A model generated the notes under the pieces. That model was given only the letters and a program-made list of their open reading frames with translations, made no database searches and was not told the DNA's origin. Below are positions 8,905 to 44,975 of a stretch of DNA of 44,975 nucleotides, piece by piece. Within the stretch, counting starts at the first letter, position 1. Each line of letters starts with the position of its first letter. The translations under genes and the position numbers were made by a program. Source of the stretch: a virus; IMG/VR virus record IMGVR_UViG_3300032242_003291, positions 272,285 to 317,259 of that record. One strand, 5' to 3'.

Positions 8905-8926
8905 AATGTTTTTTTATAAATATAAT

Positions 8927-8970
8927 AATATTGTACAAAAGTTCAAATACTAAATATGGAAATATTGTAC
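8927..8970. repeat. Direct repeat AATATTGTAC x2 upstream of R-M gene
   Basis: Two exact copies of AATATTGTAC (8927-8936 and 8961-8970) start 34 bp apart, close to three helical turns, in the 104-nt region just upstream of the R-M start codon. Each copy contains AATATT and GTAC, both palindromic. Such spacing is typical of operator pairs bound on one DNA face, so autoregulation of the R-M gene is plausible but unproven. Confidence 0.45.
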
Positions 8971-9008
8971 GATAATTTTTTAACTGAAGACATGTTGATA
9001 AATCTTTT

Positions 9009-9482
9009 TTACAAATATACTCTATTTTTTATACCCGAATATTGTTCGTACCACTTATTTTCTTTATCCATCCAAACATATGGATTGGTAGGGTCTACTT
9101 GCCATCTGTACTTTGAATAAAACTCAAAGTCTTTCTTCAATAAATTGGACTTATGTGAATCGTGAAACTTTTGATTACCCCACCACTCAGGATAAGTTAC
9201 CGATTCATCAATCACTTCCTTATTCATGGTATTTTTGAATCCACGTTTAACCCACTCGTCAATACTTACATTCAAGTACATCTTAAGTAATGGTACGTAT
9301 TGTCTCCACATAACAGAACACGGATGGTTTAACCAACCCTTGTAAGGAGTTCCATCTAACTTTGGTCTACCTGTTATAGCATTGATGATTTGGAATGTTT
9401 CAACTCTCTGTTTTCCCAAACGTTTATCATCAAGTACTCTCAGTGATTCTGTAATGTCTGAATAGGGTAAGAATGTTTGCAT
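9009..9482 (-). CDS. DNA glycosylase-like protein (pyrimidine-dimer glycosylase-related family)
   Basis: The 157-residue protein begins MQTFLPYSDITESLRVLDDKRLGKQRVE and continues with NHPCSVMW. This is the layout of a phage/bacterial family that I recall being annotated as pyrimidine-dimer DNA glycosylase/endonuclease V-related (the MSMEG_6728-type family). The conserved DDKRLGKQRVE helix and the NHP-x4-W motif are clear, and the C-terminal KENKWYEQYSG echoes the KWYKYYGK end of T4 DenV. It would excise UV photoproducts. It has its own promoter (9487-9518) and is preceded by the gp46 terminator. Family membership is fairly clear; the enzymatic activity is less certain. Confidence 0.65.
   Translation of the reverse strand: MQTFLPYSDITESLRVLDDKRLGKQRVETFQIINAITGRPKLDGTPYKGWLNHPCSVMWRQYVPLLKMYLNVSIDEWVKRGFKNTMNKEVIDESVTYPEWWGNQKFHDSHKSNLLKKDFEFYSKYRWQVDPTNPYVWMDKENKWYEQYSGIKNRVYL
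9012..9019 (-). promoter_or_regulatory. Possible -7 box TATATTTG for the R-M gene
   Basis: TATATTTG sits one base past the stop codon of the glycosylase-like gene, about 110 nt before the R-M start codon, reading toward it. No TTTG is seen 19-20 nt upstream, so support is partial. A 16-codon open frame (ATG about 8993) lies between this box and the R-M gene. Confidence 0.35.
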
Positions 9483-9486
9483 GGTG

Positions 9487-9518
9487 CAAATATATGATGT
9501 TTAATTTAAATGGCAAAA
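9487..9518 (-). promoter_or_regulatory. Bacteroidota-type promoter, TTTTG-N19-TATATTTG
   Basis: The -33 box TTTTG (9518-9514) and the -7 box TATATTTG (9494-9487) are separated by 19 nt, an excellent match to the Bacteroidota consensus. The -7 box ends only 4 nt before the ATG at 9482, so transcription would start at or next to the start codon, giving a leaderless message. Confidence 0.75.
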
Positions 9519-9521
9519 TAA

Positions 9522-9544
9522 AACCCCACTTCATGGGTGGGGTT
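9522..9544 (-). terminator. Rho-independent terminator after gp46 gene
   Basis: An 8-bp GC-rich stem (9522-9529 AACCCCAC with 9537-9544 GTGGGGTT) encloses a 7-nt loop. It lies 6 nt after the gp46 stop and is followed on the minus strand by TTATTTT. It closes the recombination operon just upstream of the next promoter. Confidence 0.75.
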
Positions 9545-9550
9545 AATTAA

Positions 9551-11929
9551 TTATTGTGAAACTTTACTTACGTTATCTGTCTTAGTAATATGAACTACGT
9601 TATCCGCCCAATTGGATATAAGTGGGTTATGACTGATTACAAATATCTTTTCAAAGTAATCCTTCAACTTCATAAAGAAGTCCCCAACCATCTCTAAATT
9701 ATCATTAGATACCTTACCCCACGTCTCATCGTAGACAGATATGTTTGGTTTTGGAAGTGAACATACCTTAGCGAGTACCGCTCTGATAGCCAAGGCTCCC
9801 ACCGTCTTCTCATATCCTGAACCTGCGGTCATAGGTTTTTCAATACCTGTTCCGTTGTCAATCATGATGAAGTCAACCTCATTCTTATCGTTAATACGAA
9901 TCTCCAAGTTGAAGAAACAAGAGTCCTGAAGTAATCTCTGAAGTTCAGAGTTAATCAATGGCATCATTGTCTTCATAATGATTTTAGATATTCCGTTCTT
10001 ACCGAAGACATCAACGTAGATTTTATAAATCTTCTCACGTTCAAACTCTTCAGCAATCTTAAGGATGATATCGTTATTCTTTTCAATACGACCTTCAAGG
10101 TTTTTGATTTGAGTTGCATTACTTGCTTGAATTCTTTCATACCCTCTCTTCTCACCAATCAATTCGTCAATACGAAGACCAGCTTTAACCAACTGAGCAT
10201 CCACCTCGTTGTTCTTCTTAATCTTATCTTGAACCTCTTGATATCTCTTAAGTTTATCTTTGGCTTGTTCCAACTTAAGGTCATTGGATTCCAAAGATAT
10301 CTCGTACTTCTCCTTGATAAGTTTGTTTCTCTCATACTCATCGAAGTCCTTCTTAAGTTGAGTGAATGATTGTTCTTTCTTTTCAAGTTTGGATTGTTCC
10401 TTTTCAAGGTCCTTAACTTTTTTCTCCCAATCTTTCAACTCATCAATCTTTTTCATTGTAAGTGCCGCCTCCATCAATTTGATTCCGCAGTGCTCACACT
10501 GAATACCATCACCATACTTCTTGATAAGTTCTTTGATGTCATCAACTTGTTTCTGTGCAAGGATTAACTCACCAGAAACTCTTTTGATTTCACCCTTAAC
10601 CTCATCATGTTGGTCCTCGTGATAATATTCCTTTGGCTCAACAATCTTAACCTCTTTAATTTGACCTTTAATCTTCTCACTACCTTCTTCATAACCTGTG
10701 ATGTCTGATTGAAGTTTGATTGGGTTAAGAACAATTAACTCTTGGTCCAAGTCGGTATGCTTTGAGTTTAATAACCCATCCTTGTACTCCTGACCCTTCT
10801 GAAGTCTTTTGTTAACATCCTCAATCTTTGTTTCAGATGAATCAATCTCGTCCTGAAGTCTTTCAATCTCTTCCTTGTTGTTCACATTGTCTTGTTTCAA
10901 TGACTCTGTGTTGTATATGTTGGACATCATACCCTTTGAGAACTCAGCAAAGATTTCTTTGCCAGTCTCTTCCTTCTTCTTCAAGAACTCAAGACCCAAG
11001 AATCTACTTAACACCTGACCACGAGCTGTTGGTTTTGCCTCCAACAGGTCCTCAAGGTTTGATGCTGTCGTCACAATCGTCATTAGGAAGTCATCCATGT
11101 CCCCAATTGATGTCTTGATGAAGTTCTCAGTCTCACGTCTTTGCTCCCCTGTAAAGTTCTGTAATTGACCGTCAGCTAACTTCTTAAAGAAGTCCAAGTC
11201 AGTCTTAACATTCCATTCACCAGCTTTGGATTTCTTTCTCTCAATTTTACGAGCAATGATATACTCCTCACCATCAATGATGATATCACCTTTAACCGAT
11301 ACCACATTCTTATCTGTGAATCTGTTAAAAATTTCTTCAGCTTTCTGTGTCTTTGTTGTCGTGTTAAAGAACAAGAATAATAACAAGTCCACAGTTAATA
11401 CCGTCTTACCTCCAAAGTTTGGTGGGTCTGACTCAACTACAGTGATACCATTACACTTGTCAAAATCAATCACTTGGTCCTCACCATAAGATAAGAAGTT
11501 ACTGAACTCAATCTTCTTGATGTACCATCTTTTGAATGGTGTCACCTCAACCTCGTTCTCCATCATTCTGTTCTCAACCGCAAGGTCAATGTTCATTACT
11601 TGGTCGTAATACTGGTCTTGTTGTTTAGACTCAAGAAGTGATTTGATAAGTTCCTTCTGATAATTCTTATCCATGATGTTAACCGCAACATCAATCGTCT
11701 GTTGTGTATCATCAACGGTCTTTGCCTTAGTAATAACATTAATGTTGTTAGACACATACTTCTTCATGAAGTACTGTTTAACAGACTTGATTCTCTCTTG
11801 TGTAAAGTTCTCAGGAGTGTCCTCCCAAATTACTTGGATATAAGGATTCTCCAACGTAGTTATGTCTAACTTTGTTGCCATATTGGTGTAATTAAATTCT
11901 GGTATCGGATTGAATAAATCCCATTTCAT
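9551..11929 (-). CDS. gp46: Recombination exonuclease subunit gp46 (SbcC/Rad50-like) with N-terminal extension
   Basis: This 792-residue SMC-like ATPase partners gp47 in DNA end resection and recombination-dependent replication. From about residue 137 it has the Rad50 N-terminus (IKKIEFSNFLSYGEDQVIDF). A diverged Walker A (PPNFGGKTVL, about 170) follows, then long coiled coils around a zinc-hook QCEHCG (about 478). The C-terminal ABC half has the signature TAGSGYEKTVGALAIRAVLA, Walker B-type ISVYDETW and an FVISHN switch. T4 gp46 is about 560 residues. The first 140 or so residues here (WDLFNPIPEFNYTNMATKLD ... VEVTPFKRWY) are extra and may be the capping domain missing from the short gp47 nearby. 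It starts one base into the upstream stop and ends at a terminator. Confidence 0.88.
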   Translation of the reverse strand: MKWDLFNPIPEFNYTNMATKLDITTLENPYIQVIWEDTPENFTQERIKSVKQYFMKKYVSNNINVITKAKTVDDTQQTIDVAVNIMDKNYQKELIKSLLESKQQDQYYDQVMNIDLAVENRMMENEVEVTPFKRWYIKKIEFSNFLSYGEDQVIDFDKCNGITVVESDPPNFGGKTVLTVDLLLFLFFNTTTKTQKAEEIFNRFTDKNVVSVKGDIIIDGEEYIIARKIERKKSKAGEWNVKTDLDFFKKLADGQLQNFTGEQRRETENFIKTSIGDMDDFLMTIVTTASNLEDLLEAKPTARGQVLSRFLGLEFLKKKEETGKEIFAEFSKGMMSNIYNTESLKQDNVNNKEEIERLQDEIDSSETKIEDVNKRLQKGQEYKDGLLNSKHTDLDQELIVLNPIKLQSDITGYEEGSEKIKGQIKEVKIVEPKEYYHEDQHDEVKGEIKRVSGELILAQKQVDDIKELIKKYGDGIQCEHCGIKLMEAALTMKKIDELKDWEKKVKDLEKEQSKLEKKEQSFTQLKKDFDEYERNKLIKEKYEISLESNDLKLEQAKDKLKRYQEVQDKIKKNNEVDAQLVKAGLRIDELIGEKRGYERIQASNATQIKNLEGRIEKNNDIILKIAEEFEREKIYKIYVDVFGKNGISKIIMKTMMPLINSELQRLLQDSCFFNLEIRINDKNEVDFIMIDNGTGIEKPMTAGSGYEKTVGALAIRAVLAKVCSLPKPNISVYDETWGKVSNDNLEMVGDFFMKLKDYFEKIFVISHNPLISNWADNVVHITKTDNVSKVSQ

Positions 11930-33061: not shown

Positions 33062-33640
33062 TTATTTTTTTTTGAATTTTGCAGGGACTCCAACGTAAAC
33101 CCCACTTGTTACTATGTTTTTAACCACAGTCGCATTAGCACCTATTATTACATTTGAACTAACGTGTATTTTTTCTTTAATTGATGAGTTATTACCCATA
33201 TAAACATTTGAACTAATATTAACGTTTCCAGATACAATAGAACCTGGCATCGCACTAAAATAATCTCCAATCTTTGAATCATGACCTATTTGAACTCCTC
33301 TATTTAGTATTGCATGTGAACCTATTTTTATATTTGTTGTCAGTATTGAATAGGCCCCAATAAAACTACCTTCTCCTACTTCAATATAATCCAAAATTAA
33401 TGCAGTTGGATGAACAAATGTAAAAAATTGGAGCCCTTTAGGTAATCGTTGAACCATTTCATACCTATCCTTGGAGTTTCCAATTGCAATCATTGCAACA
33501 TGTTCGTTTGGGTCTAACATAGATAATGGTGATGTTTCGCTGTCAACATATTTGTCGTCAACAAATCGTTCTAATTTAACCCCCATTTGTGCCATTACTT
33601 CTCTTGCATGACCACCATTTCCAATTAATACTTTTTTCAT
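33062..33640 (-). CDS. NeuD/PglD-type sugar O- or N-acetyltransferase
   Basis: The 192-residue protein has the NeuD/PglD layout. The N-terminal nucleotide-sugar domain starts VLIGNGGHAREVMAQMG and includes AIGNSKDRYEMVQRL. A left-handed beta helix follows with FVHPTALI, GAYSILTTNIKIG, HAILNRGVQIGHDSKIGDYF and a GVPAKFKKK end. PglD enzymes acetylate 4-amino sugars made by PglE aminotransferases, and the coupled gene just upstream (ATGA overlap) is a DegT/PglE-like aminotransferase. The pair therefore suggests synthesis of an acetamido sugar. Full length for the family. Confidence 0.85.
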   Translation of the reverse strand: MKKVLIGNGGHAREVMAQMGVKLERFVDDKYVDSETSPLSMLDPNEHVAMIAIGNSKDRYEMVQRLPKGLQFFTFVHPTALILDYIEVGEGSFIGAYSILTTNIKIGSHAILNRGVQIGHDSKIGDYFSAMPGSIVSGNVNISSNVYMGNNSSIKEKIHVSSNVIIGANATVVKNIVTSGVYVGVPAKFKKK

Positions 33641-34281
33641 TGTTTGTAAATTTCGTATTTTGATAAATCTGGATATGGTAATTCCAAATCTAAATTATCT
33701 TTTTTACTTCCATCCAGATTATAAAATTGAGTCATCATCAACAATCCTCTTGCTGCAAGTTCAGGCATCATATAAAAATTCCAACCTAACATATCAAAAT
33801 TATCGTCATGGTAAGAACATTCTCTTCTACCACTAAATCTGGCTCTCTTAAACCATAACATCGCCTGATAGTCATCAGTAATTATTGCGCCTCCTTTACT
33901 CAATTTTAATGTCTTATAAGGTCCTGTAAATGATAGACACATATGTGTCCCTGAGACGTACATATCCGCAGTAAACCTCAATGCTGAGTCAACAACATTA
34001 CTTGGAAATAATCTGTAAGCCCCTTTAATTGTTTTTCCTTCAACAGGTGTGAAATTAACCTTCAATCCTGCATGAATTATCTCACAAGGAACCGAAGGAT
34101 ATGTCTTCGAAGGACAGTCTACAGTGTCTCCTGTAAATGACTTCTTAACATGTTTTTCATAATATAACGCTAAGAATAATGCGTTACTCATATTATCTAA
34201 TGCAATAGCATGAGGAGCACCTGTGTAATCACACAATGTTTTCTCAAAATCTTCAGTAATTTTATGTACACCTTGTGCCAT
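33637..34281 (-). CDS. DegT/DnrJ/EryC1-family sugar aminotransferase, short form
   Basis: The 214-residue PLP-dependent enzyme belongs to the DegT family (PglE, StrS). Seen are the phosphate-binding start YTGAPHAIALDNMSNALFLA, DTVDCPSKTYPSVPCEIIHA, the VVDSALRF region, and the Lys-containing HMCLSFTGPYKTLKLSKGG then AIITDD. It probably transaminates a keto nucleotide sugar for acetylation by the coupled NeuD/PglD-like enzyme. Normal family members have about 370-390 residues. This one keeps the large domain and only a stub of the small C-terminal domain. A deleted copy of the same gene remains at 37551-37668. Confidence 0.8.
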   Translation of the reverse strand: MAQGVHKITEDFEKTLCDYTGAPHAIALDNMSNALFLALYYEKHVKKSFTGDTVDCPSKTYPSVPCEIIHAGLKVNFTPVEGKTIKGAYRLFPSNVVDSALRFTADMYVSGTHMCLSFTGPYKTLKLSKGGAIITDDYQAMLWFKRARFSGRRECSYHDDNFDMLGWNFYMMPELAARGLLMMTQFYNLDGSKKDNLDLELPYPDLSKYEIYKQ

Positions 34282-34298
34282 TTAATTTAAGTTTTAGA

Positions 34299-34333
34299 TT
34301 AAAAATATAATTGACATGTTTTATATTTTCAAC
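34299..34333. promoter_or_regulatory. Divergent promoter region, copy 1
   Basis: Directly upstream of the aminotransferase gene, the minus strand reads TTG-N20-TATATTTT, a near-consensus host-type promoter. The region is an imperfect version of the symmetric divergent promoter at 37688-37717. The gene it once served on the plus strand is now only a fragment. Confidence 0.5.
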
Positions 34334-34376
34334 TTTATATTTTGTGAAACAAATCACCTTTTTTATGACCGATACA
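34333..34376 (+). pseudogene. Fragment of the glycosyltransferase gene found intact at 37741
   Basis: These 44 bases match 38034-38080 inside the intact GT4-BAHT gene, with three mismatches and one 3-nt gap. The part lost here begins at a 7-bp direct repeat, AACATTA, present in the intact copy at 37718 and 38032, consistent with a 314-nt microhomology deletion of the 5' end. The fragment now supplies, in antisense, the last codons of the gene ending at 34363. Confidence 0.8.
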
Positions 34377-35328
34377 TAATCTCGACGTCATTTATCAAAG
34401 TTAAATTTTCCTCAATAGTGAAATCAATGTTAAAATATTTTATATCATTAATGAATGCCTTTGCGTTTTTTATATCTGTAATTTCAACTTTTTTTGTATT
34501 CCAAGTTTTTGGTTGAATTTTTAAATTTGTAAAAAAATTGTCATTGATTATTAAATCAAGAGAAACTTCAATACTTGTTCCGTTATGAATAAAATAATTT
34601 AAATCATCACCACTTCTAAAAAAAGTAAAAGCAATTTTACTTAAAATATTTTCTGACATAATTTCACATTTTCCAAAATCTAAGAATTTCTCTAACTCTT
34701 GGTGATTCAATTTTAATACTTTTTGATTTTCAAATAACAACTCATAAACAGTTCTTTCACTTGAAAATAAATCACTATCTAAATGAACTTTTTTATACAA
34801 GTCAAAGATTTTTTTATAGTTGTATTCAAATGTTTCAAAGTGAAATTTTTCCAAATTTATTGAAATTAAATTTCCAATAATATTACCTCTGTCGCTCTCA
34901 TAGATAACAACATCGTTGTTTTCAAGTTTACTTTTGTTTATTTCAAGAATACTCAAATCTTTGATTAGTGCGTCATATTCAAGAACATGAACTATTTTAT
35001 ATTCGGCATTTTTTAAAAAGGACAAAGGAAGTTGCCACAATCTAAGTATCGCAGGTACATGACTTGAAGGAAAGAAATAAGATTTATGCATAATATAAAA
35101 ATCATCGTTGGCAAAGAATCTTTTTCCTTTCAATGAGTTGTCAGTAATAAATGGATTATTTTTATCATAAAAATAAAAATCAACATCTTCTACAATATCA
35201 AAAGGTAACACACAATGACTGGCAATACAAATTTTATACTTTGAATTAATTTGACGAATTAATTTTTTTAAAATAAGTTTTTTTTCGCTTGTGTTTGAAA
35301 AATCCGTTATAAGTACTATCTCACTCAT
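34363..35328 (-). CDS. Glycosyltransferase-like protein
   Basis: The 321-residue soluble alpha/beta protein begins MSEIVLITDFSNTSEKKLIL and continues with YKICIASHCVLPFDIVEDVD and FYFYDKNNPFITD. A YKIVHVLEYDALI segment is the likely sugar-nucleotide strand with an acidic pair. The C-terminal third (SIEVSLDLIINDNFFTNLKI) is beta-rich. I recall related proteins in polysaccharide clusters of marine and freshwater bacteria and phages, but the exact family is uncertain. Its last few codons and stop (IMYRS) are formed by the antisense of a decayed glycosyltransferase fragment, so its C-terminus was reshaped by the rearrangement. Confidence 0.6.
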   Translation of the reverse strand: MSEIVLITDFSNTSEKKLILKKLIRQINSKYKICIASHCVLPFDIVEDVDFYFYDKNNPFITDNSLKGKRFFANDDFYIMHKSYFFPSSHVPAILRLWQLPLSFLKNAEYKIVHVLEYDALIKDLSILEINKSKLENNDVVIYESDRGNIIGNLISINLEKFHFETFEYNYKKIFDLYKKVHLDSDLFSSERTVYELLFENQKVLKLNHQELEKFLDFGKCEIMSENILSKIAFTFFRSGDDLNYFIHNGTSIEVSLDLIINDNFFTNLKIQPKTWNTKKVEITDIKNAKAFINDIKYFNIDFTIEENLTLINDVEIMYRS

Positions 35329-35379
35329 TATTCAATAATTTATTTCCATTTGTAATTTTATTTCAAAAAATAAAACCTT

Positions 35380-36144
35380 TTAAACCCAAAAATCGATATT
35401 TAGCCATTCGTCATTTACTGTATGACAATTTATTGATGGTTGTACTGTCCCTATTTTACAACTCTCACTATTAATTAAATTAATTAAATCTTCGTCATTT
35501 TTATAGTTTAAAATACACGGATATTTATAAAAATTTTCATTTAGTATTGTTTTTCTACCCATTAATGCCATTTCTATTGCTGTTGCCATTCCATTACCGT
35601 CAGACAAATTTAAGTTAAGAAAAGATTTATCGTAATAATTATTTTTCAAATAATTTATATCATAGTAATCATTAATATTAAAATGATTCGTAGTTATTAT
35701 TTCATAATTAATTTGTTTTTGTATTTGTTTTAATTTTTCAACGTTAAATTGATTACTCCATCCATTTTTAAAACCAGTATATGCATATATTTTATCCCCC
35801 AAAACATTAGGTTCAAACAATGAGTAATCTTTAACTTCTATCGTTACGTTTCTACAATTAACATTATCAGGTATTTTTGAAATTAATCTAACTTCTTCTA
35901 ATATATTAATAATGAACAAATCATCTGTATTTGTGACTATATCAAAATTTGGTAGGTCATATGGGTTTGTAAGAAATATAAATTTGTATGATTTATGATT
36001 TTGTATTTGATGAGATAATTCGTTTCCGCCAAAAAATATACATGGTTTGTTCACATCATAATATTCATCAAAATTATATCTTTCAATAAAACCTTTTTTA
36101 AAAAAATTAACAGAAGGGGCAACAAGTGTTTGAGATATTCTCAT
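35380..36144 (-). CDS. GT-B-like glycosyltransferase
   Basis: The 254-residue protein has a short N-terminal half (MRISQTLVAPSVNFFKKGFI). Its C-terminal half is of GT-B type: GDKIYAYTGFKNGWSNQFNV resembles the start of the nucleotide-binding domain, and LNLSDGNGMATAIEMALMGR, then KTILN, resembles the Glu-containing donor-binding loop of GT1/GT4 enzymes. It is shorter than typical GT-B enzymes (about 350-400), so it may be a reduced form or work with a partner. It lies in the four-gene block between the duplicated junctions. Confidence 0.6.
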   Translation of the reverse strand: MRISQTLVAPSVNFFKKGFIERYNFDEYYDVNKPCIFFGGNELSHQIQNHKSYKFIFLTNPYDLPNFDIVTNTDDLFIINILEEVRLISKIPDNVNCRNVTIEVKDYSLFEPNVLGDKIYAYTGFKNGWSNQFNVEKLKQIQKQINYEIITTNHFNINDYYDINYLKNNYYDKSFLNLNLSDGNGMATAIEMALMGRKTILNENFYKYPCILNYKNDEDLINLINSESCKIGTVQPSINCHTVNDEWLNIDFWV

Positions 36145-36171
36145 TATATTATTATTTTTTTTATTTTTTAT

Positions 36172-36222
36172 TTATTTTTGAATTTGACAGCAACACCCAC
36201 ATTCAAATAACGCTAATTTCAT
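36172..36222 (-). CDS. Possible 16-residue cysteine-rich micropeptide or gene remnant
   Basis: A tiny frame, MKLALFECGCCCQIQK then stop, begins with an ATG that overlaps the stop of the upstream methyltransferase (ATGA), exactly as real genes in this operon do. Four of five consecutive residues are cysteine. It could be a micropeptide or the stub of a lost gene. Support is only its coupling and its odd composition. Confidence 0.25.
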   Translation of the reverse strand: MKLALFECGCCCQIQK

Positions 36223-36845
36223 TTTTTCTTATAATAAGAATATTCACCAAAATCGCCAACCAACTCACAATGTGGTGTTAAAAATTTATTAATAGAATTA
36301 CGAACACTATCCCAACTGGAATCGTCCATAATAATATATCCTCCCTTCTTAACTAAAGGTAAATAAAGTAAAATGTCTCTTGATACATTCATCTCATTGT
36401 GATTTCCGTCAATATGTAATACATCTATCGATTCTTTTTCAAAATGAATGAATGAGTCCTCTGATGGTTCTCTAATTATTGTAATTGTTTTCGATAAATC
36501 ATTATTTTCAATAATTTCACAAACATTTTTGTAAATTGAATCAAAGGTTTCTTGTCCTTTTAATAATTCGTTATAAAAAAATTCTTCTTGATTTTTATCC
36601 CAAAAAGGGATTTCATTTTTTGACATTTCAAAAGACCATGGGTCAATACCAATAATTTTTCCTTCAATTTTTTCTAAAACCTCTGCAAAAGAAAATAAAG
36701 AACTACCTTTATACACTCCAATTTCAACACAAACTTTACTGTGAGTTGTTTTAATTAAATTATGTATAAGATTTCTTTTCTCATCAATACACCAACCTCC
36801 TTGGTCATAAACATCATTTTTAATTAATCCTCTTAAATTTCTCAT
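36219..36845 (-). CDS. Class I SAM methyltransferase (Methyltransf_24 type)
   Basis: The 208-residue protein has motif I SKVCVEIGVYKGSSLFSFAE, the acidic strand GKIIGIDPWSFEM, and motif IV/V-like ESIDVLHIDGNHNEMNVSRD then LPLVKKGGYIIMDD. This is the usual form of small Methyltransf_24 enzymes that accompany glycan clusters and O-methylate sugars. It lies 1 nt downstream of the stop of the similar-sized methyltransferase gene at 36847, so the two are one operon. Confidence 0.8.
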   Translation of the reverse strand: MRNLRGLIKNDVYDQGGWCIDEKRNLIHNLIKTTHSKVCVEIGVYKGSSLFSFAEVLEKIEGKIIGIDPWSFEMSKNEIPFWDKNQEEFFYNELLKGQETFDSIYKNVCEIIENNDLSKTITIIREPSEDSFIHFEKESIDVLHIDGNHNEMNVSRDILLYLPLVKKGGYIIMDDSSWDSVRNSINKFLTPHCELVGDFGEYSYYKKK

Positions 36846-36846
36846 G

Positions 36847-37551
36847 TTATTTTTTTTGTATTATAATTTTTATATTATCGTAACTATCGTAGTGTGTCCC
36901 AATTAGTTTCCAATCGGTGTTACCTTTCAAAACGTGTTGGTAAATATGAACCCCTTTACCGACCATTGGATAAGGAATAACCATATTATCTTCTTGACCA
37001 TTAGCATGAAACCACTGAACATATGTACCTTGTTTATAATTGTCATCGATTACAATAATACTACCTTTTAACATTTTTGATTCGATTGCTTTAAACTCTT
37101 CCCAACCATGTAATGCACTTGGAAATGCATCAAATAAATTAAAATCCCAACTGTCTAAATGGACAAAATTAGGTATTTCTTCAATATTTTTTAAAAACGA
37201 AACAGAATCACTTACGTGTATTGAATAATCCAAATTAGGAATAGCATCTTCAAATATTTTTACACTTTTTTCAACAATGTTAGATGAGATGTCAACTGAC
37301 GTCATTTTACCATTTGTGTTTTTTGCAACATACCCTAAAAAAAGACCAAATAACCCATCGTTATAGTTTGATGATGCTCCAGTTTCTAAAACAATCAATT
37401 TATCAAAATTGAATTCATCATTAATTGAGTCAATAACTGTTTCACATTGTTGTCTCCTAATTCTGTGTGCATTTGAATTTTCATAATCAAAAATGACTGT
37501 CTTCATATGACTTAAGTATTCCTCATATCCCTCTAAAAAATTTTGTTTCAT
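36847..37551 (-). CDS. Class I SAM methyltransferase
   Basis: A 234-residue protein with a Rossmann SAM fold: LIVLETGASSNYNDGLFGLF (motif I), KMTSVDISSNIVEKSVKIFE (motif II, acidic residue), and NFVHLDSWDFNLFDAFPSAL with GSIIVIDDNYKQG at the metal/substrate end. It resembles Methyltransf_24-type enzymes of glycan clusters. The substrate is unknown, probably a sugar. Its start codon overlaps the relic end of a deleted aminotransferase copy, which places it at the edge of the inserted block. Confidence 0.75.
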   Translation of the reverse strand: MKQNFLEGYEEYLSHMKTVIFDYENSNAHRIRRQQCETVIDSINDEFNFDKLIVLETGASSNYNDGLFGLFLGYVAKNTNGKMTSVDISSNIVEKSVKIFEDAIPNLDYSIHVSDSVSFLKNIEEIPNFVHLDSWDFNLFDAFPSALHGWEEFKAIESKMLKGSIIVIDDNYKQGTYVQWFHANGQEDNMVIPYPMVGKGVHIYQHVLKGNTDWKLIGTHYDSYDNIKIIIQKK

Positions 37552-37740: not shown

Positions 37741-40029
37741 ATGAGTAAATCAAAAATTTTTGCACATGGTTCCTATGTTGGTAACACAGGATATAATCAA
37801 CACACAAGAGATTTTTTCAGACATCTTAGTAAACACGCAGATATAAAAGTTAGAAACTTTACGATAGGTAATTCTTGGAAGGGTTATTCCGAAAGACCAC
37901 ATGATAACGAAACTTACTTTAATGCAACCGATGAAAAACTATTATATCAACAAGTTCTTTGGAATGGTGACAACACAAGAAGTAATTTTCCAATTTATTC
38001 AGATAAATCAAAAAATTTCACACCTGATGTTAACATTATATTATGTGAAACAAATCACCACCTTTTTTATGACCAATACAATGGTCCGAAAATTGCATAT
38101 AACGTATGGGAGTCTACATTGCAACCTAAAGAATACTTCAACAAATTAAAAGAATTTGATGAAATGTGGGTACCATCAAAATGGCAAAGAGACTGTACCA
38201 TAGCTCAAGGTTATGACCCAAACAAAATTAAAGTCGTTCCTGAAGGTGTTGATGTTAATACATTTTACCCCGATAACTCAGTAAATCATCCATTAACAAA
38301 AGACAAGTTTACATTCTTTTTAGCGGGAAGATGGGATTATAGAAAATCTATCAAGGAAATTATTGAAACATTTATAAAGACTTTTAATAACAACGAACCT
38401 GTTGAGTTAATTGTTTCTGTTGATAATCCATTTTCGAATGATGGATTAAACTCAACTGAAGAAAGATTGAAACATTATGGGTTAGAAGATGATAGAATTA
38501 AAATTCTCCATTTCCCACCAAGAGAGGAATACATTAGATTGTTAAAATCTTGTAATGTATTTGTATCATGCGCAAGAGCAGAAGGTTGGAACTTACCACT
38601 TATTGAGGCTATGGCTTGTGGTACTCCGTCAATTTATTCAGATTGTTCAGGTCAGTTGGAATTTGCAGAGGGTAGAGGTATACCTGTTAAAATATCGCAT
38701 GAATTACCTGTAAGTGCTAGTACATATAATCACTTCAACGATAATGTTGGAAACTATTATGAACCTGATTTTTATGATTTGGGTATCAAAATAAAAAATG
38801 TGTTTGAGGATTATAAAAAGTATAAAATTTTTGCATTAGTAGAATCAGAACAAATTAGAGAAGAGTTTAGTTGGGAAAATGTTGCTAAAATAGGTATTGA
38901 TACTATTAATGATTTTTTAGACAGAAAACCTTGGTTAAATAAACCAATCAAAACTAATGAAATTAAAATTAGTTATTTAGATGGTCCAAGAGTTGAAGTA
39001 TCAGGTGACGAAAAGAAAGATTATTTTGTTGAATTTATTGATAGTACCGATGGAAAGGTAATACATTCTCAAACTATTAGTAATAACATGTGGGTTTCTT
39101 GTAGTAAAAAATACTATATTCCTTGGATAATTAAAATTAATGGTGAAGTTTACGATGAACTGAATTTAGAAGGAAAAACGGTAATGATTTCACTTGAATC
39201 AAAAGCTTTAGGTGATACTATATCTTGGGCACCATATGCTGTTGAATTTCAAAAGAAACATAATTGTAAGGTGTTATTGTCCACTTTCAAAAATAACTTC
39301 TTTGAAGGTTTAGAATCATATAAAAATATAACCTTTATCAAACCAGGTGAATCTCATGGTTGTGATGTAATATACAGAATCGGTTGGTTTAAAAAAGATA
39401 AGAAATGGGAAGATAGAGACAAAAATCCAAATCAACCAAACTTGATTCCACTTCAACAAGCAGCAACCGACATTTTAGGTTTAGAATATAAAGAACTTAA
39501 CTTTGGTTTAAATTTTGAAAAAAAGGAAAAACCTATGGAAAAAGATTATGTAGTGTTCGCACCAAATGCAACTTCAGGTTGTAAAGAGTGGGATTATAAT
39601 CATTGGGTGACATTATCTAAACTCATTAAAGAATTAGGATATGATGTTTTAACATTAACACAAAAACCATTTCACATAGATGGTGTATTAAATATTTGGG
39701 ATGAACCTTTGGACGTTGTTGCAAACTACCTTTATCATGCCAAGGCTTACGTAGGGTTGGGTTCGGGATTATCTTGGTTTAATTGGGCTTTAGGGAATTA
39801 TTCATTTATGGTTAATGGTTTTGCAAGACCTGACCACGAATTTACAACAAACATTACAAAAATTTATAACGAAAATACTTGTATATTCTGTTGGAATGAT
39901 GAAGTTTTTGTTTTTGACCCTGGTAATTGGAATTGGTGTCCAGTATATGAAGGGACAAAAAAACAACACGTTTGTCAAAGGTCTATTACACCATTACAAG
40001 TATTTCAACAACTAACAACTAAAATATAA
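37741..40029 (+). CDS. GT4 glycosyltransferase fused to BAHT-type (TibC/Aah-like) heptosyltransferase
   Basis: The 762-residue protein joins two enzymes. Residues about 1-400 are a GT4-type GT-B enzyme: KFTFFLAGRWDYRKSIKEII, then ARAEGWNLPLIEAMACGTPS with the Glu-x7-Glu loop near 281. Residues about 405-762 resemble autotransporter O-heptosyltransferases: ESKALGDTISWAPYAVEFQK, YRIGWF, LQQAATDILGLEYKELNFGL and GLGSGLSWFNWAL. They end with Cys714-x2-Cys717-x15-Cys733-x11-Cys745, the iron-finger pattern. BAHT enzymes transfer heptose from ADP-heptose to Ser in autotransporter adhesins. It overlaps the next BAHT-like gene by one base. The donor sugar here cannot be told from sequence. Confidence 0.85.
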   Translation: MSKSKIFAHGSYVGNTGYNQHTRDFFRHLSKHADIKVRNFTIGNSWKGYSERPHDNETYFNATDEKLLYQQVLWNGDNTRSNFPIYSDKSKNFTPDVNIILCETNHHLFYDQYNGPKIAYNVWESTLQPKEYFNKLKEFDEMWVPSKWQRDCTIAQGYDPNKIKVVPEGVDVNTFYPDNSVNHPLTKDKFTFFLAGRWDYRKSIKEIIETFIKTFNNNEPVELIVSVDNPFSNDGLNSTEERLKHYGLEDDRIKILHFPPREEYIRLLKSCNVFVSCARAEGWNLPLIEAMACGTPSIYSDCSGQLEFAEGRGIPVKISHELPVSASTYNHFNDNVGNYYEPDFYDLGIKIKNVFEDYKKYKIFALVESEQIREEFSWENVAKIGIDTINDFLDRKPWLNKPIKTNEIKISYLDGPRVEVSGDEKKDYFVEFIDSTDGKVIHSQTISNNMWVSCSKKYYIPWIIKINGEVYDELNLEGKTVMISLESKALGDTISWAPYAVEFQKKHNCKVLLSTFKNNFFEGLESYKNITFIKPGESHGCDVIYRIGWFKKDKKWEDRDKNPNQPNLIPLQQAATDILGLEYKELNFGLNFEKKEKPMEKDYVVFAPNATSGCKEWDYNHWVTLSKLIKELGYDVLTLTQKPFHIDGVLNIWDEPLDVVANYLYHAKAYVGLGSGLSWFNWALGNYSFMVNGFARPDHEFTTNITKIYNENTCIFCWNDEVFVFDPGNWNWCPVYEGTKKQHVCQRSITPLQVFQQLTTKI

Positions 40030-40910
40030 TGAAGACAATATTAATTGAACTTATGTCAGGTTCTCTTGGTGACACCATAGCAATTATGCCATGTGTAGAA
40101 TATTTTATATCAAAAAATGATGATGATGTTCTTTTGAAGATAAATCCAAGATATCATTTTTTATTCACTAACTCATACCCAACAATTAAATTCTACCAAG
40201 GCAACGAACATTTTGATAAAAAAATTCAACTACATTATAATTTTAATTTACCCCTACAAACAGGATTTGCACAACAACTTGGATATGTTAATTGGACCTA
40301 TATCAGACCAAAAGTCGATGTTAATGTAAAAGAAAGACCTATAAAATCCAAGTATGTTTCAATTAGCATACATTCAACATCTCAACTCAAATATTGGAAT
40401 CATCCAATTGGAAAAAAATCACAACCATTATCTCCTTATTGGACCGAATTAAACGGATTATTGAGAAAGTCAGGTTATACTCCTGTTGTTGTAGAAAAAG
40501 ATGAAATGTTTGGAATACCCCCACTCAGAAATGGTATGCCATCAAAATCAAATAATAAAATTGGTCTTAGTTTAGAAGACACAATAAATTATATATATCA
40601 CTCAGATTTTTTCATAGGACTATCTTCAGGACTATCTTGGCTTGCACATGCAATGGGAAAAAAAGTTGTAATGATATCAAACTTCTCGGATGAAACTCAT
40701 GAATTTGATTTATCCTGTGAAGATTATATAAGAATAACTAATAAATCAGTTTGTCATGGTTGTTGGAATAAAATTAATCAAGATTATAATTTTGATTCAT
40801 CTGATTGGTATTGGTGTCCCAAACATAAAGATACTCCAAGAGAGTTTGAATGTCATACTTCAATAACACCTGATTATGTTATTGAACAAATTAAACAATG
40901 GATAAATTAA
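40029..40910 (+). CDS. BAHT-type (TibC/Aah-like) protein heptosyltransferase
   Basis: A 293-residue free-standing homologue of the C-terminal half of the previous protein. It has the GT9-like start LMSGSLGDTIAIMPCVEYFI, the acceptor/donor region SIHSTSQLKYWNHP, the DFFIGLSSGLSWLAHAMGKK loop, and an iron finger Cys242-x2-Cys245-x17-Cys263-x11-Cys275 (CHGC ... WYWCPKH ... FECHTSITP). The shared ending WYWCP/WNWCP ... SITP is striking. It probably assembles with or complements the fusion enzyme to O-glycosylate a protein. It starts on the upstream stop (TAATG), so the two are made together. Confidence 0.85.
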   Translation: MKTILIELMSGSLGDTIAIMPCVEYFISKNDDDVLLKINPRYHFLFTNSYPTIKFYQGNEHFDKKIQLHYNFNLPLQTGFAQQLGYVNWTYIRPKVDVNVKERPIKSKYVSISIHSTSQLKYWNHPIGKKSQPLSPYWTELNGLLRKSGYTPVVVEKDEMFGIPPLRNGMPSKSNNKIGLSLEDTINYIYHSDFFIGLSSGLSWLAHAMGKKVVMISNFSDETHEFDLSCEDYIRITNKSVCHGCWNKINQDYNFDSSDWYWCPKHKDTPREFECHTSITPDYVIEQIKQWIN

Positions 40911-40914
40911 AATT

Positions 40915-41913
40915 ATGTTTGAATTATTAAGTTACGATATACAAAAAGATGAAAAAAAAATTGTAATACAAATTTTCTTTCGTAACAACTCGGACAACTC
41001 CTATGATGTTAATACATTATTTGAGGATTCAATCTTCAATCAATGTCAGAAATTTAGAACTATGACAGTAAACCCAAATTCAACTCATTGGGTTTCTTGG
41101 GATTTATCTCAGGATTTGGATACCGCATCAGATGAGATAAATGGATTACAGTTGAGGGCATTATGGGGTGCCAATTTCAAAATATTAATTGATGACAAAG
41201 TTGTTGCAGAATTTCCATTAAAATATACTTTTACCAATTTAAATCTAAGAAAAGGATTGAAAAATTTTTCACCATTCAATAAGAAAAAGTTTTGGATTCT
41301 TGGCGATTCTCATTCAGGATTTTACACAAACACGTCCCCTGATTATTTAAAAACATCAAAATACGACATAATACCGTCAGGTTTATTGGGGCTATCGTTA
41401 AATAACTTTTTAAATGAAGAATTTGATAGATGGTTTGACTCTTTACCAATTTGGGATAATGATATTGTTGCAATTGATGTTGGTGAACTCGATATAAGAT
41501 GTGGTCTTTTTCACTTTGCAAGTAAAAATGACTTAAATGTATATTCCATTACTGATGATTTATTAAAAAGATACTTTGATTTTCTATTAAGATTTAAACA
41601 AAAGTACAAAAATGAGTTGGTTATATTGACACCTAACAGACCAATAAAAGATGGGTGCCTCGATGGAAACGCAGAATATTTCAAATTAACCATATCTAAT
41701 ACAAGTGAAAGACTTGAACTATGGAATTATTTCAATATTAAATTAAAATTATTCTGTGAAGAAAACTCAATAAAATACTGGGATATCAAACACATGTATA
41801 CAGATAAAGATGGAACATTGTTCAATGACATACTTTATTACAACGATATACACATAAAAGTCAAAGAACCAATGTTGTTTGACTTAAGACATAAAATAGA
41901 AAATAATTTTTAA
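40915..41913 (+). CDS. SGNH/GDSL-like hydrolase or acyl-modifying protein
   Basis: The 332-residue protein has two parts. Residues about 1-115 are a beta domain (FELLSYDIQKDEKKIVIQIF) like an accessory glycan-binding module. Residues about 120-332 show SGNH landmarks: KFWILGDSHSGFYT (nucleophile Ser in Gly-Asp-Ser-His), IVAIDVGELDIRCG (a diverged block III), LVILTPNRPI, and a C-terminal YYNDIHIK with the Asp-x-His pair. SGNH enzymes add or remove acyl groups on sugars. It lies 4 nt after the BAHT gene and is cytoplasmic by sequence. Confidence 0.75.
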   Translation: MFELLSYDIQKDEKKIVIQIFFRNNSDNSYDVNTLFEDSIFNQCQKFRTMTVNPNSTHWVSWDLSQDLDTASDEINGLQLRALWGANFKILIDDKVVAEFPLKYTFTNLNLRKGLKNFSPFNKKKFWILGDSHSGFYTNTSPDYLKTSKYDIIPSGLLGLSLNNFLNEEFDRWFDSLPIWDNDIVAIDVGELDIRCGLFHFASKNDLNVYSITDDLLKRYFDFLLRFKQKYKNELVILTPNRPIKDGCLDGNAEYFKLTISNTSERLELWNYFNIKLKLFCEENSIKYWDIKHMYTDKDGTLFNDILYYNDIHIKVKEPMLFDLRHKIENNF

Positions 41914-41914
41914 C

Positions 41915-42634
41915 ATGGATTTATCTAAATTTGATTGGGGTTGGATGGACAAACCAACAACTAGAACACTATCAAGTAAAGGGATTACAAAGTCATATGG
42001 ACAATGGCATAAAGACATCATTACAGATGAAATATTCGAACAAAAATTATATGAACAATTTTTTCCTGTTGAAGAAGGAGATATTGTTATGGACTTCGGT
42101 GCAAGTGTAGGTCCATTTACATATTCCATCTTAGATAAGAAACCAAAACATGTTTATTGTTTTGAGCCGAGTCCACAAGAAATTAGTACATTAATTAAAA
42201 ACACTCAAGACGGACCTGTTACAGTAATAAATAAGGGTATTTCTGACGTTGAGGGTGAGTTTGAATTTAATTTGTTTGGTGTTGAAGATGGAACAAGAAT
42301 CGCTAAATCAACTACGTTTGATTCCATTAAAAAAGAGTTTAATATTACTAAAATTGATTTTATCAAAACAGATTGTGAAGGTGGTGAATACTCTATTTTT
42401 AACAATAAAAATATTTTTTGGATTAAAGAAAATGTTAGAAAGGTAGTCGGTGAGTGGCATTTAGATAGTCCTCAAAGAAAGGAGCAATTCAGAGTTTTCA
42501 GAGATACTTATTTACGTTTGTTTCCAAATATTGAAGTTTTTGCTATTGATGGTGTCAATATTAAATGGGAATTATGGAAAGACCATTTTATTGATTATTA
42601 TCGTCAAATTATAGTTTATATCGATAATAGATAA
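41915..42634 (+). CDS. FkbM-family methyltransferase
   Basis: The 239-residue protein shows the FkbM fold: GDIVMDFGASVGPFTYSILD (motif I), VYCFEPSPQEISTLIKN, the RIAKSTTFDSIKKEF segment, and ITKIDFIKTDCEGGEYSIF with the characteristic Lys-x-Asp-x-Glu-Gly. It starts one base after the SGNH gene stop and ends at a strong terminator, closing the plus-strand operon. A likely role is O-methylation of the sugar attached by the BAHT-like enzymes, which would cap it. The substrate is inferred from neighbours only. Confidence 0.85.
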   Translation: MDLSKFDWGWMDKPTTRTLSSKGITKSYGQWHKDIITDEIFEQKLYEQFFPVEEGDIVMDFGASVGPFTYSILDKKPKHVYCFEPSPQEISTLIKNTQDGPVTVINKGISDVEGEFEFNLFGVEDGTRIAKSTTFDSIKKEFNITKIDFIKTDCEGGEYSIFNNKNIFWIKENVRKVVGEWHLDSPQRKEQFRVFRDTYLRLFPNIEVFAIDGVNIKWELWKDHFIDYYRQIIVYIDNR

Positions 42635-42670: not shown

Positions 42671-44975
42671 TTACTTTATTGGTTTGTATTCTAAAAGAAC
42701 CTTTTCAATATCTTTACGTTCAGCTTGAATGAAGAAACTTGTATTTATTTTTTCTGTCTCAGAATCTATATACACTTTATTATCTTCGACTTTAACAACG
42801 TAGTGAATTGTTGCTGTCCCAATTGGTGTAAGTTGAACTGTGATAGTATCTTCGTGTACTAAATTTACCCAATATTCAGGTAATTCAATTACATTTGAAG
42901 TTACTATACCTCTTACGTAAACTCCATGTTCTGGTCCTTCTAACACACCGTATCTTAATCTGAATCCTTCTTTTGTTGGGTGAGTGATATCAAATGATTT
43001 AGATGCCGCTGTTAAATTACCTGTCATCGTAGTATCTCCTGTCACATTCAAGGTTGCTCCATCATATCTTAGACCTGCATTACCTTGAACCGTGCCAGCT
43101 GTTCCCGTTGCAGTTACAATCCAAGTATTTGTATTGTTATTGATAACTGCTGAGTTTCCTGACGTACCAGAACTTCCTGAGCTACCACTCGAACCAGATG
43201 TTCCAGAACTTCCTGACGTGCCGCTAGCACCTGAAACACCACTTGTTCCTGAAGAACCAGATGAACCTGAGCTACCACTTGTTCCTGAGCTTCCTGAAGA
43301 ACCAGATGTTCCTGAGCTTCCTGAAGAACCAGATGTTCCTGAGCTACCACTTGAACCAGATGTTCCTGAGCTACCACTTGAACCAGATGTTCCTGAAGAA
43401 CCAGATGAACCTGAGCTACCACTTGTTCCCGAAGAACCGCTCGAACCAGAAGTTCCTGAGCTACCACTTGAGCCACTTGTTCCTGATGAACCAGAGCTAC
43501 CACTTGTTCCTGATGAACCTGATGAACCTGAGCTACCACTTGTTCCTGAGCTACCGCTTGAACCAGACGTCCCTGATGAACCAGACGTTCCAGAGCTTCC
43601 TGAAGTACCACTTGAGCCACTTGTTCCTGATGAGCCAGAGCTACCACTTGTTCCTGATGAGCCAGAGCTACCACTTGAACCAGACGTTCCTGAAGAACCT
43701 GAACTACCACTTGTTCCTGAAGAACCACTTGAGCCAGATGTTCCTGAACTACCAGATACACCTCTTAAACCTGCAATAGATATTGTCCATGAAGACGCTA
43801 AAGTAGTTCCAGAGTTATAATCAGCAGCAATCGCGAAAGTTGTTCCTGTTATACTTACTGTACCTTCAAAGAAATTAGAAGTAGTATTTATCGCTCTTAC
43901 TCTGTCACCTGTAACGAATGCACCTTGTTGATTCACAGTTAAAGTTATTGTACCAGTAGATGCTGGAGTTGCGGATGTAGTTGAAGTTACATTATTATAA
44001 CCAAGTCCTGAAGTTCCTGATGTTCCTGATGAGCCAGAGCTACCACTTGTTCCTGATGAGCCTGAACTACCACTTGTTCCAGAAGAACCTGATGAACCTG
44101 AGCTACCAGATGTTCCTGATGAACCTGATGAACCTGAAGTTCCTGAGCTACCACTTGAGCCACTTGTTCCTGATGAACCTGATGAACCTGAGCTACCACT
44201 TGTTCCAGAAGAACCTGAGCTACCACTTGTTCCTGATGAACCAGATGTTCCAGAGCTTCCTGAAGTACCACTTGAGCCACTTGTTCCTGAAGAACCTGAG
44301 CTACCACTTGTTCCAGAAGAACCAGATGAGCCAGAGCTACCACTTGTTCCCGAAGAACCTGAGCTACCACTTGTTCCTGATGAACCAGATGTTCCAGAGC
44401 TTCCTGAAGTACCACTTGAGCCACTTGTTCCTGATGAGCCAGAGCTACCACTTGTTCCTGAAGAACCCGAGCTACCCGATGTTCCTGATGAACCAGATGT
44501 TCCAGAGCTTCCTGAAGTACCACTTGAGCCACTTGTTCCTGAAGAACCTGAAACGCCTCTCACACCTGCGATAGATATTGTCCATGAAGACGCTAAAGTC
44601 GTTCCCGAGTTATAATCAGCTGCAATTGCGAAAGTTGTTCCAGTTATACTCACAGTACCTTCAAAGAAGTTAGATGTAGTGTTCACTGCTCTTACTCTAT
44701 CACCTGTTATAAACGCTCCTTGTTGATTTACGGTTAATGTTATAGTTCCTGTTGATGCTGGTGTTACCGATGTAGTTGAAGTTACATTACTATAACCAAG
44801 TCCTGATGTTCCTGATGTTCCTGAAGAACCTGAGCTACCACTTGTTCCTGAGCTACCACTTGAGCCAGATGTTCCTGATGAACCTGAGCTACCACTTGTA
44901 CCTGAGCTACCGCTTGAACCACTTGTTCCAGAAGAACCAGATGAGCCAGAGCTACCACTTGTTCCTGAGCTACCG
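42671..44975 (-). CDS. Collagen-like Gly-Ser-Thr repeat tail fibre, 5' end beyond window
   Basis: The frame is open from the window edge to the stop at 42671, over 760 codons. A GTG at 44686 is internal because the repeats continue upstream in frame. Modules of about 84 residues (SATPASTGTITLTVNQQGAF ... GDRVRAINTTSNFFEGTVSI) alternate with tracts of Gly-Ser-Ser-Gly-Thr-Ser units. The C-terminal domain (about 170 residues) holds FDITHPTKEGFRLRYGVLEG, then PEHGVYVRGIVTSNVIELPE, an ending common to fibres of T4-like environmental phages. The Gly-x-x periodicity suggests a collagen-like trimeric shaft. The many exposed Ser/Thr residues make it the closest candidate acceptor for the sugar enzymes upstream. 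Confidence 0.82.
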   Translation of the reverse strand, partial: GSSGTSGSSGSSGSSGTSGSSGSSGTSGSSGSSGTSGSSGSSGTSGSSGSSGTSGTSGLGYSNVTSTTSVTPASTGTITLTVNQQGAFITGDRVRAVNTTSNFFEGTVSITGTTFAIAADYNSGTTLASSWTISIAGVRGVSGSSGTSGSSGTSGSSGTSGSSGTSGSSGSSGTSGSSGSSGTSGSSGTSGSSGTSGSSGTSGSSGSSGTSGSSGSSGSSGTSGSSGSSGTSGSSGTSGSSGTSGSSGTSGSSGSSGTSGSSGSSGSSGTSGSSGSSGTSGSSGSSGTSGSSGSSGSSGTSGSSGSSGTSGSSGSSGTSGTSGLGYNNVTSTTSATPASTGTITLTVNQQGAFVTGDRVRAINTTSNFFEGTVSITGTTFAIAADYNSGTTLASSWTISIAGLRGVSGSSGTSGSSGSSGTSGSSGSSGTSGSSGSSGSSGTSGSSGSSGTSGSSGTSGSSGTSGSSGTSGSSGSSGTSGSSGSSGSSGTSGSSGSSGTSGSSGSSGTSGSSGSSGTSGSSGSSGSSGTSGSSGSSGTSGSSGSSGTSGSSGSSGTSGSSGSSGTSGSSGSSGSSGTSGVSGASGTSGSSGTSGSSGSSGSSGTSGNSAVINNNTNTWIVTATGTAGTVQGNAGLRYDGATLNVTGDTTMTGNLTAASKSFDITHPTKEGFRLRYGVLEGPEHGVYVRGIVTSNVIELPEYWVNLVHEDTITVQLTPIGTATIHYVVKVEDNKVYIDSETEKINTSFFIQAERKDIEKVLLEYKPIK
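43157..43757. repeat. Gly-Ser-Thr coding repeat tract 1
   Basis: About 600 bp of short tandem units, nine-base multiples such as GAACCAGATGTTCCTGAGCT read on the plus strand, encode Gly-Ser-Ser/Gly-Thr-Ser on the minus strand. Larger blocks within the tract are themselves repeated, indicating several rounds of unequal exchange. Confidence 0.8.
43758..44004. repeat. Beta-module coding repeat, copy A
   Basis: This segment, between two Gly-Ser-Thr tracts, encodes a module that is nearly the same as the one at 44555-44805. The DNA differs mainly at third codon positions, for example tagtattta against tagtgttca at the NTTSNFF codons. The copies are therefore older than the flanking short repeats or are under protein-level constraint. 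Confidence 0.75.
44005..44554. repeat. Gly-Ser-Thr coding repeat tract 2
   Basis: A second tract of about 550 bp with the same short units and several long identical sub-blocks, for example the GATGTTCCAGAGCTTCCTGA block that recurs within it. It shares these sub-blocks with tract 1, which makes recombination between the tracts likely. Confidence 0.8.
44555..44805. repeat. Beta-module coding repeat, copy B
   Basis: The second copy of the module at 43758-44004, offset by about 797 nt. A third Gly-Ser-Thr tract begins after it and runs off the window, so more module copies may follow. Confidence 0.75.

Follow-up and report, generated by a model that had tools for sequence, protein, structure and literature searches.

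The final 45 kb of the 317,259-base IMG/VR virus record IMGVR_UViG_3300032242_003291 encode two adjacent proteins, here termed A and B, that likely O-glycosylate serines and threonines in a Gly-Ser/Thr collagen-like fiber made by the same phage. This stretch (positions 272,285 to 317,259 of the record; 44,975 nucleotides) is referred to as the window, and its source virus is, judged from size, a jumbo phage. TibC-type enzymes are known from bacterial adhesins. In the original prediction, A and B were described as two heptosyltransferases of the bacterial autotransporter heptosyltransferase (BAHT) family that decorate Ser/Thr-rich phage fibers. Sequence comparison and structure models provided data on (i) the fold, (ii) the catalytic residues, (iii) the iron-finger ligands, (iv) the fusion of A to a GT4 glycosyltransferase, and (v) the co-occurrence of BAHT genes with collagen-like arrays in viruses and some bacteria. 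Taken together, these data suggest that A and B are better labeled TibC/Aah-like protein O-glycosyltransferases that probably act on Gly-Ser/Thr collagen-like fibers.

Family, fold, and active site of proteins A and B

The open reading frames (ORFs) of A (37741-40029, 762 amino acids [aa]) and B (40029-40910, 293 aa) lie on the same strand, and the stop codon of A and the ATG of B share one base in a TAATG junction. This overlap fits translational coupling, as had been predicted for the pair. Residues 405-762 of A share 29% identity with B over 305 columns (BLASTP E value, 9e-33), and both proteins contain the four predicted cysteines with exactly the expected spacings, C714-x2-C717-x15-C733-x11-C745 in A and C242-x2-C245-x17-C263-x11-C275 in B. 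The NCBIfam profile TIGR04414, which covers the TibC/Aah BAHT family, has a curated cutoff of 200 bits; A and B scored 218 and 201 bits, respectively, B being marginal in a genome-wide search (197.2 bits, or 200.8 bits with its neighbors in frame). A chance motif as the source of the likeness between A and B was rejected on the basis of the BLASTP E value and the TIGR04414 scores. The record was queried family by family with profile searches, and A and B were its sole TIGR04414 matches. With TIGR02193 (lipopolysaccharide [LPS] heptosyltransferase I), they reached 19 to 20 bits versus a cutoff of 185, and an identity as LPS heptosyltransferases (GT9, WaaC/WaaF) was rejected on this score.

By sequence, the only convincing solved relative was TibC (4RAP/4RB4; phmmer E values are given in Table 1). 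The AlphaFold2 models of A and B were confident, with mean predicted local distance difference test (pLDDT) values of 89.1 and 92.9, respectively; the predicted template modeling score of A was 0.57, and the mutual placement of its domains is therefore uncertain. TibC was the top Foldseek match for both models, so that the proposed comparison of A residues 405-762 and of B with TibC returned the TibC fold in each case. After TibC, Foldseek retrieved GT4 enzymes such as MshA and HepE for A, in agreement with the GT4 fusion originally described. These data argue strongly that A and B belong to the TibC/Aah superfamily.

The cysteines of A and B fall on the positions of the TibC iron ligands C339, C342, C358, and C370 (PMC4358343), as anticipated for iron fingers. 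Residue conservation was analyzed, in TibC numbering, in 75 distinct phage BAHT domains (57 A-like and 18 B-like). The catalytic Asp110, the phosphate-binding Lys230, the sugar-binding Trp305, and the four iron-ligand cysteines were invariant in all 75 copies, and position 226, which in TibC is Thr226 and likewise binds phosphate, was Thr or Ser. Because TibC mutants in Asp110, Lys230, Trp305, and the four cysteines lose activity (PMC4358343), both window enzymes carry the residues of working enzymes.

Two positions that bear on the sugar donor differ from TibC. Arg286 of TibC contacts adenine N1, and its replacement abolishes or largely diminishes activity (PMC4358343). A has Val and B has Thr at this position, and Arg is present in only 7 of the 75 distinct phage copies versus 92 of 99 bacterial copies. 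Residue 300 decides whether D,D- or L,D-heptose is used; it is Ser in Aah as well as in B, whereas A has Gly. With these differences, the donor cannot be taken to be heptose; a Gram-negative host could supply ADP-heptose, or a different nucleotide sugar could be used. Synthesis of ADP-heptose by the phage itself was considered, but searches of the record for gmhA and rfaE domain II were empty (the remaining pathway steps were not searched). Given these empty searches and the absence of Arg286, the "heptosyl" part of the original prediction lacks support.

The two proteins also depart from TibC in architecture. In TibC, a ring of 12 subunits encircles the autotransporter and is assembled from dimers by way of the thumb; mutation of the thumb leaves dimers without activity, and barrel-deleted TibC is inactive as well (PMC4358343). 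Counted from the alignment, the thumb region has 30 aa in TibC, and the same length was found in 83 of the 90 bacterial copies that have no collagen-like neighbor. It has 20 aa in 47 of 57 A-like phage copies (A among them) and 21 aa in all five members of a gammaproteobacterial collagen-linked clade. B-like copies have a thumb region of 29 to 30 aa (29 in B) but no barrel. The N-terminal beta-barrel is present in A, according to alignment and model, and absent from B, in which the TIGR04414 match starts at profile position 83. Thus, the family and fold originally proposed are retained, but A and B are not canonical BAHTs: A lacks the beta-hairpin thumb, B lacks the barrel, and both lack Arg286. 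We infer from the alignments that A-type enzymes form no TibC-type ring and that B may complement A. Since the thumb lengths are alignment-based counts and about three changes on the tree suffice to explain thumb loss, this is a structural prediction and not a statistical result; independent-pair tests of the loss of thumb or Arg286 versus collagen adjacency were uninformative.

Association of BAHT genes with collagen-like arrays

Related viral loci were fetched with three queries, namely, the B domain, the A domain, and the GT4 domain. All GT4-query loci of at least 8 kb also held a BAHT domain and are therefore unusable as a BAHT-free control. Single linkage at 80% resulted in 68 BAHT clusters, 29 of which were flanked by 8 kb or more in each direction. 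Twenty of these 29 clusters contained a Ser/Thr-rich Gly-x-y array of 8 or more triplets, and 14 had it within 3 kb, as the prediction of the pair beside repeat fibers in related phages would have it. Loci of an unrelated gene, SbcC-like, in related phages had such an array in 0 of 75 cases, a contrast that on its own could reflect a shared location in the fiber region.

In a reverse test, viral contigs were scanned, blind to BAHT, with a DNA pattern for Gly-Ser-Ser-Gly-Thr-Ser-Gly, and 20 records that were 52 kb or longer and matched the pattern at least twice were compared with 22 controls. The latter comprised 17 records from random patterns (two scans, the first giving 13 contigs) and 5 with a single collagen-pattern match. 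BAHT was detected in 15 of the 20 collagen-picked records (14 above the cutoff) but in only 1 of the 22 controls (Fisher P = 2.5e-6), or 1 of 17 when only random-pattern controls were counted (P = 3e-5); this sole positive control itself holds 64 collagen matches. No pair among 11 BAHT proteins from the collagen-picked records exceeded 60% identity. GT2 enzymes were weakly enriched (12/20 versus 6/22; P = 0.06), with an odds ratio for the collagen-array link of 4 compared to 63 for BAHT, indicating that the BAHT enrichment is not general to glycosyltransferases. BAHT was not matched in the viral record G055 (L375), whose very long Gly-x-y collagen arrays are rich in Gln; this is consistent with a link restricted to Ser/Thr-rich arrays.

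The association extends to some bacteria. Among the 80 bacterial BAHT loci sampled, some (L294, L296, and L319) showed the known partnership, BAHT adjoining strand-loop-strand-type repeat proteins, and in six gammaproteobacterial loci (L285, L290, L291, L292, L297, and L298; all contigs of metagenome-assembled genomes) BAHT lay beside short GTSGSSG-repeat proteins, the N termini of which resemble a lipobox (GCGG) or a signal sequence. In L285 the repeat gene is 13 bp upstream of BAHT on the same strand. GTSGSSG genes are located at 8954-9925 (+) in L285, 8518-8898 and 11261-11887 (-) in L297, 7793-9000 (-) in L298, and 7902-9067 (-) in L290. In the phylogenetic tree, five of the six collagen-linked bacterial BAHTs formed their own branch and that of L285 was found among phage-like copies; TibC and other bacterial BAHTs formed one clade (SH-aLRT 100). 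Collagen-linked copies were scattered over several parts of the tree.

The pairing is also present in an isolate, Microcystis phage Mel-JY01 (PP395634.1), so that the idea is directly testable. A 1226-aa GT4-methyltransferase-BAHT protein of this phage, annotated as "methyltransferase FkbM," scored 317 bits; its middle methyltransferase-like segment is read from annotation and sequence and is not a family match. Upstream of the gene is a 1016-aa Gly-Ser/Thr collagen-like frame (PP395634.1, 1-3049, plus strand; L644), which is not annotated as such and is mostly covered by opposite-strand hypothetical proteins. Position 286 of the BAHT domain is Ile. Cyanobacterial LPS often lacks heptose; if this holds for Microcystis, it would speak for another donor.

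Gene neighborhood, proposed function, and alternatives

The features of the window are listed in Table 1. Pfam and NCBIfam searches with the 332-aa protein found nothing, nor did PHROG at an E value of ≤0.01. The fiber gene lies about 1.8 kb past B, and its Gly-Ser-Ser/Gly-Thr-Ser array contributes to a composition of 263 Ser, 110 Thr, and 179 Gly per 767 aa. Because collagen-like arrays leave the record at both ends on the same strand (1 to ~4 kb and 314.9-317.3 kb, the latter being window 42671-44975), the record probably ends inside one very long collagen-like fiber gene that the assembler left unjoined; further arrays are present at 255-261 kb. Upstream of A, the opposite strand (window 33637-37551) partially matches a DegT-type aminotransferase (33637-34281) and carries methyltransferase-like genes at 36219-37551; both may belong to a glycan pathway. 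Among the PHROG matches in the record are a sigma factor, SbcC/SbcD-like proteins, endonuclease VII, an exonuclease, and a primase.

TABLE 1 Coordinates of proteins A and B, their domains, and neighboring genes in the window
Feature	Position	Strand	Evidence
Protein A, N-terminal GT4 glycosyltransferase domain, residues 1 to ~395	37741..38925	+	PF00534, 2.3e-15; phrog_2170 glycosyltransferase, 1.2e-32; Foldseek, MshA/HepE GT4 folds
Protein A, C-terminal BAHT-like domain, residues 405-762 (predicted beta-barrel, catalytic GT-B, and iron finger, without thumb)	38953..40029	+	TIGR04414, 218 bits; TibC 4rap, phmmer 6.2e-35; AlphaFold2 model, TMt 0.84 to 4rap; thumb region, 20 aa versus 30 in TibC
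Protein A, iron-finger cysteines C714, C717, C733, C745	39880..39975	+	Alignment to TibC C339, C342, C358, C370
Protein B, stand-alone BAHT-like catalytic domain and iron finger, without N-terminal barrel	40029..40910	+	TIGR04414, 201 bits (profile 83-373); 4rap, phmmer 6.8e-32; AlphaFold2 pLDDT 92.9, TMq 0.87 to 4rap
Protein B, iron-finger cysteines C242, C245, C263, C275	40752..40853	+	Alignment to TibC
332-aa protein, next gene in same-strand run, possible accessory	40915..41913	+	ORF
FkbM-type methyltransferase, final gene of run, possible glycan methylation	41915..42634	+	TIGR01444, 62.8 bits (cutoff, 37.7); FkbM-type domains fused to BAHT in related loci
Gly-Ser/Thr collagen-like fiber gene, proposed substrate; frame of at least 767 aa leaving the window end	42671..44975	-	PF01391, 3.2e-56; C-terminal phage domain phrog_17490, 1.1e-37

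In the mechanism that we propose, A and B would attach sugar to Ser and Thr of the fiber, with the collagen-like array as the acceptor. The reaction would take place in the host cytoplasm, either ahead of virion assembly or in the course of it. Since its thumb is missing, A would act without a TibC-type ring, an arrangement that would be better matched to a thin extended chain than to a wide beta-helix. B, with a thumb region and no barrel, would work with A, possibly as a hetero-oligomer. The fused GT4 may extend or diversify the glycan, either by lengthening the first sugar or by adding a second one. The latter role, originally suggested, is plausible in that the GT4 loci of sufficient length all hold a BAHT domain. 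The FkbM methyltransferase may then cap the glycan, which, at a guess, might stabilize the proline-poor triple helix. Protease resistance is a further conceivable effect, as are the hiding of fibers from host defenses and the altered adsorption that were originally suggested. BAHT domains of related loci are fused to GT4, to methyltransferases and GT4, to GT4 and PIG-L, or to FkbM and a dehydrogenase. Fusions to an FkbM methyltransferase and a short-chain dehydrogenase (L109, 700-3447) and of GT4-BAHT to a PIG-L deacetylase-like domain (L072, 8795-12541) hint at varied sugar decoration.

The broad co-occurrence of BAHT with Gly-Ser/Thr collagen in viruses and some bacteria favors the Ser/Thr-rich fibers as the likely target, as predicted. 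A number of observations weigh against this assignment. (i) TibC modifies Ser and not Thr (PMC4358343). (ii) A and B are located in the fiber/tail region, where glycosyltransferases gather anyway. (iii) Some of the 29 BAHT clusters have no such array, nor does a 636-kb BAHT-bearing record, and in three large records (G001, G007, and G009) the listed collagen matches are more than 40 kb from BAHT. (iv) Five of the 20 collagen-picked contigs contain no BAHT, and the control records were shorter on the whole, which weakens the reverse test somewhat. (v) In an SbcC-matched set of 21 phage records, BAHT and collagen co-occurred (Fisher P = 3.4e-5), but this value is not relied on because, on the tree, no more than one or two independent changes account for it. 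(vi) The link between thumb and collagen is not significant once phylogeny is counted.

Other functions were weighed against these data. Glycosyltransferases of the pelagimyophage host-recognition cluster were interpreted as host-surface modifiers (PMC7029224), and BAHTs are GT9 relatives of the LPS heptosyltransferases WaaC/WaaF, as reflected in a PF01075 match and in the Foldseek retrieval of the LPS heptosyltransferase structures 1psw and 2h1h. A and B might thus modify the LPS core or O-antigen, altering receptors or excluding other phages, and their proximity to the fiber would then reflect a shared host-recognition region. We consider this unlikely, since the TIGR04414 scores far exceed those for LPS heptosyltransferase I, the iron finger and the barrel of A are characteristic of TibC, BAHT is linked to Gly-Ser/Thr arrays far more strongly than GT2 is, and in bacterial contigs the link is seen again next to small secreted proteins. 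The location of BAHT near a tail-sheath gene in marine relatives and the loci without a recognizable array would be compatible with glycosylation of a different virion protein (baseplate, tail sheath, or another fiber), with the collagen-like array as a mere companion. Such a target would leave unexplained both the presence of BAHT in contigs picked by their collagen and the bacterial BAHTs beside short GTSGSSG proteins, and we regard it as improbable.

A different question, compatible with fiber glycosylation, is whether B is catalytically idle or regulatory and only completes an oligomer with A. B lacks the barrel whose deletion abolished TibC activity, its full-length thumb region could complement A, which has none, and 14 of 23 unique B copies directly follow an A, seven of them with a 4-base overlap. 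However, Asp, Lys, and Trp are invariant in every one of the 18 B-like sequences, which speaks for catalytic activity, and the occurrence of some B-like genes without an A argues against a mere partner; an idle B thus appears rather doubtful.

Fiber glycosylation by A and B, if true, (i) provides a likely function for many phage genes labeled only as glycosyltransferase or methyltransferase, (ii) bears on the building of proline-poor Gly-Ser/Thr collagen arrays, and (iii) predicts heavily glycosylated fibers on many large phages. A more tentative extension, possible although we would not presume it, is that TibC-type enzymes represent a wide, mostly viral system for the O-glycosylation of Gly-Ser/Thr collagen-like fibers. 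Its enzymes would be thumb-less, would form no ring, and would use a donor other than ADP-heptose, the glycan would stiffen or stabilize proline-poor collagen, and the autotransporter enzymes would be one specialized clade.

Comparison with known systems

The closest known system is that of the TibC/Aah BAHTs (TIGR04414; 4RAP, 4RB4; PMC4358343), with which the phage proteins share the fold, Asp110, Lys230, Trp305, the four-Cys iron finger, the barrel (in A), and the association with a repetitive Ser-rich partner. They differ in the GT4 fusion, the missing thumb of A, the missing barrel of B, and the replacement of Arg286 by Val or Thr. In addition, the partner of TibC/Aah is a beta-helical (strand-loop-strand) autotransporter, whereas the candidate partner of the phage enzymes is a collagen-like fiber; none of the ten neighboring proteins tested matched an autotransporter, the whole record not having been searched for them. 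Our literature search, which did not cover the nearest-term Cronobacter papers, retrieved no article joining collagen-like proteins with BAHT enzymes. The collagen-modifying enzymes of Mimivirus are, to our knowledge, unrelated to A and B. Mimivirus likewise modifies its own collagen, but it is a virus of amoebae and the modification comprises hydroxylation as well as glycosylation (PMC8968730). BclA of Bacillus is also a sugar-bearing Gly-x-y collagen-like fiber protein; it differs in being a Gram-positive spore protein, and the part of the article drawn on here names no BAHT-type enzyme (PMC8968730). Mycobacteriophage virions carry glycans on capsid and tail-tube subunits (Freeman et al. 2023, cited in PMC12619734); these are different phages and virion proteins, and, according to the citing article, the glycans were demonstrated there by experiment.

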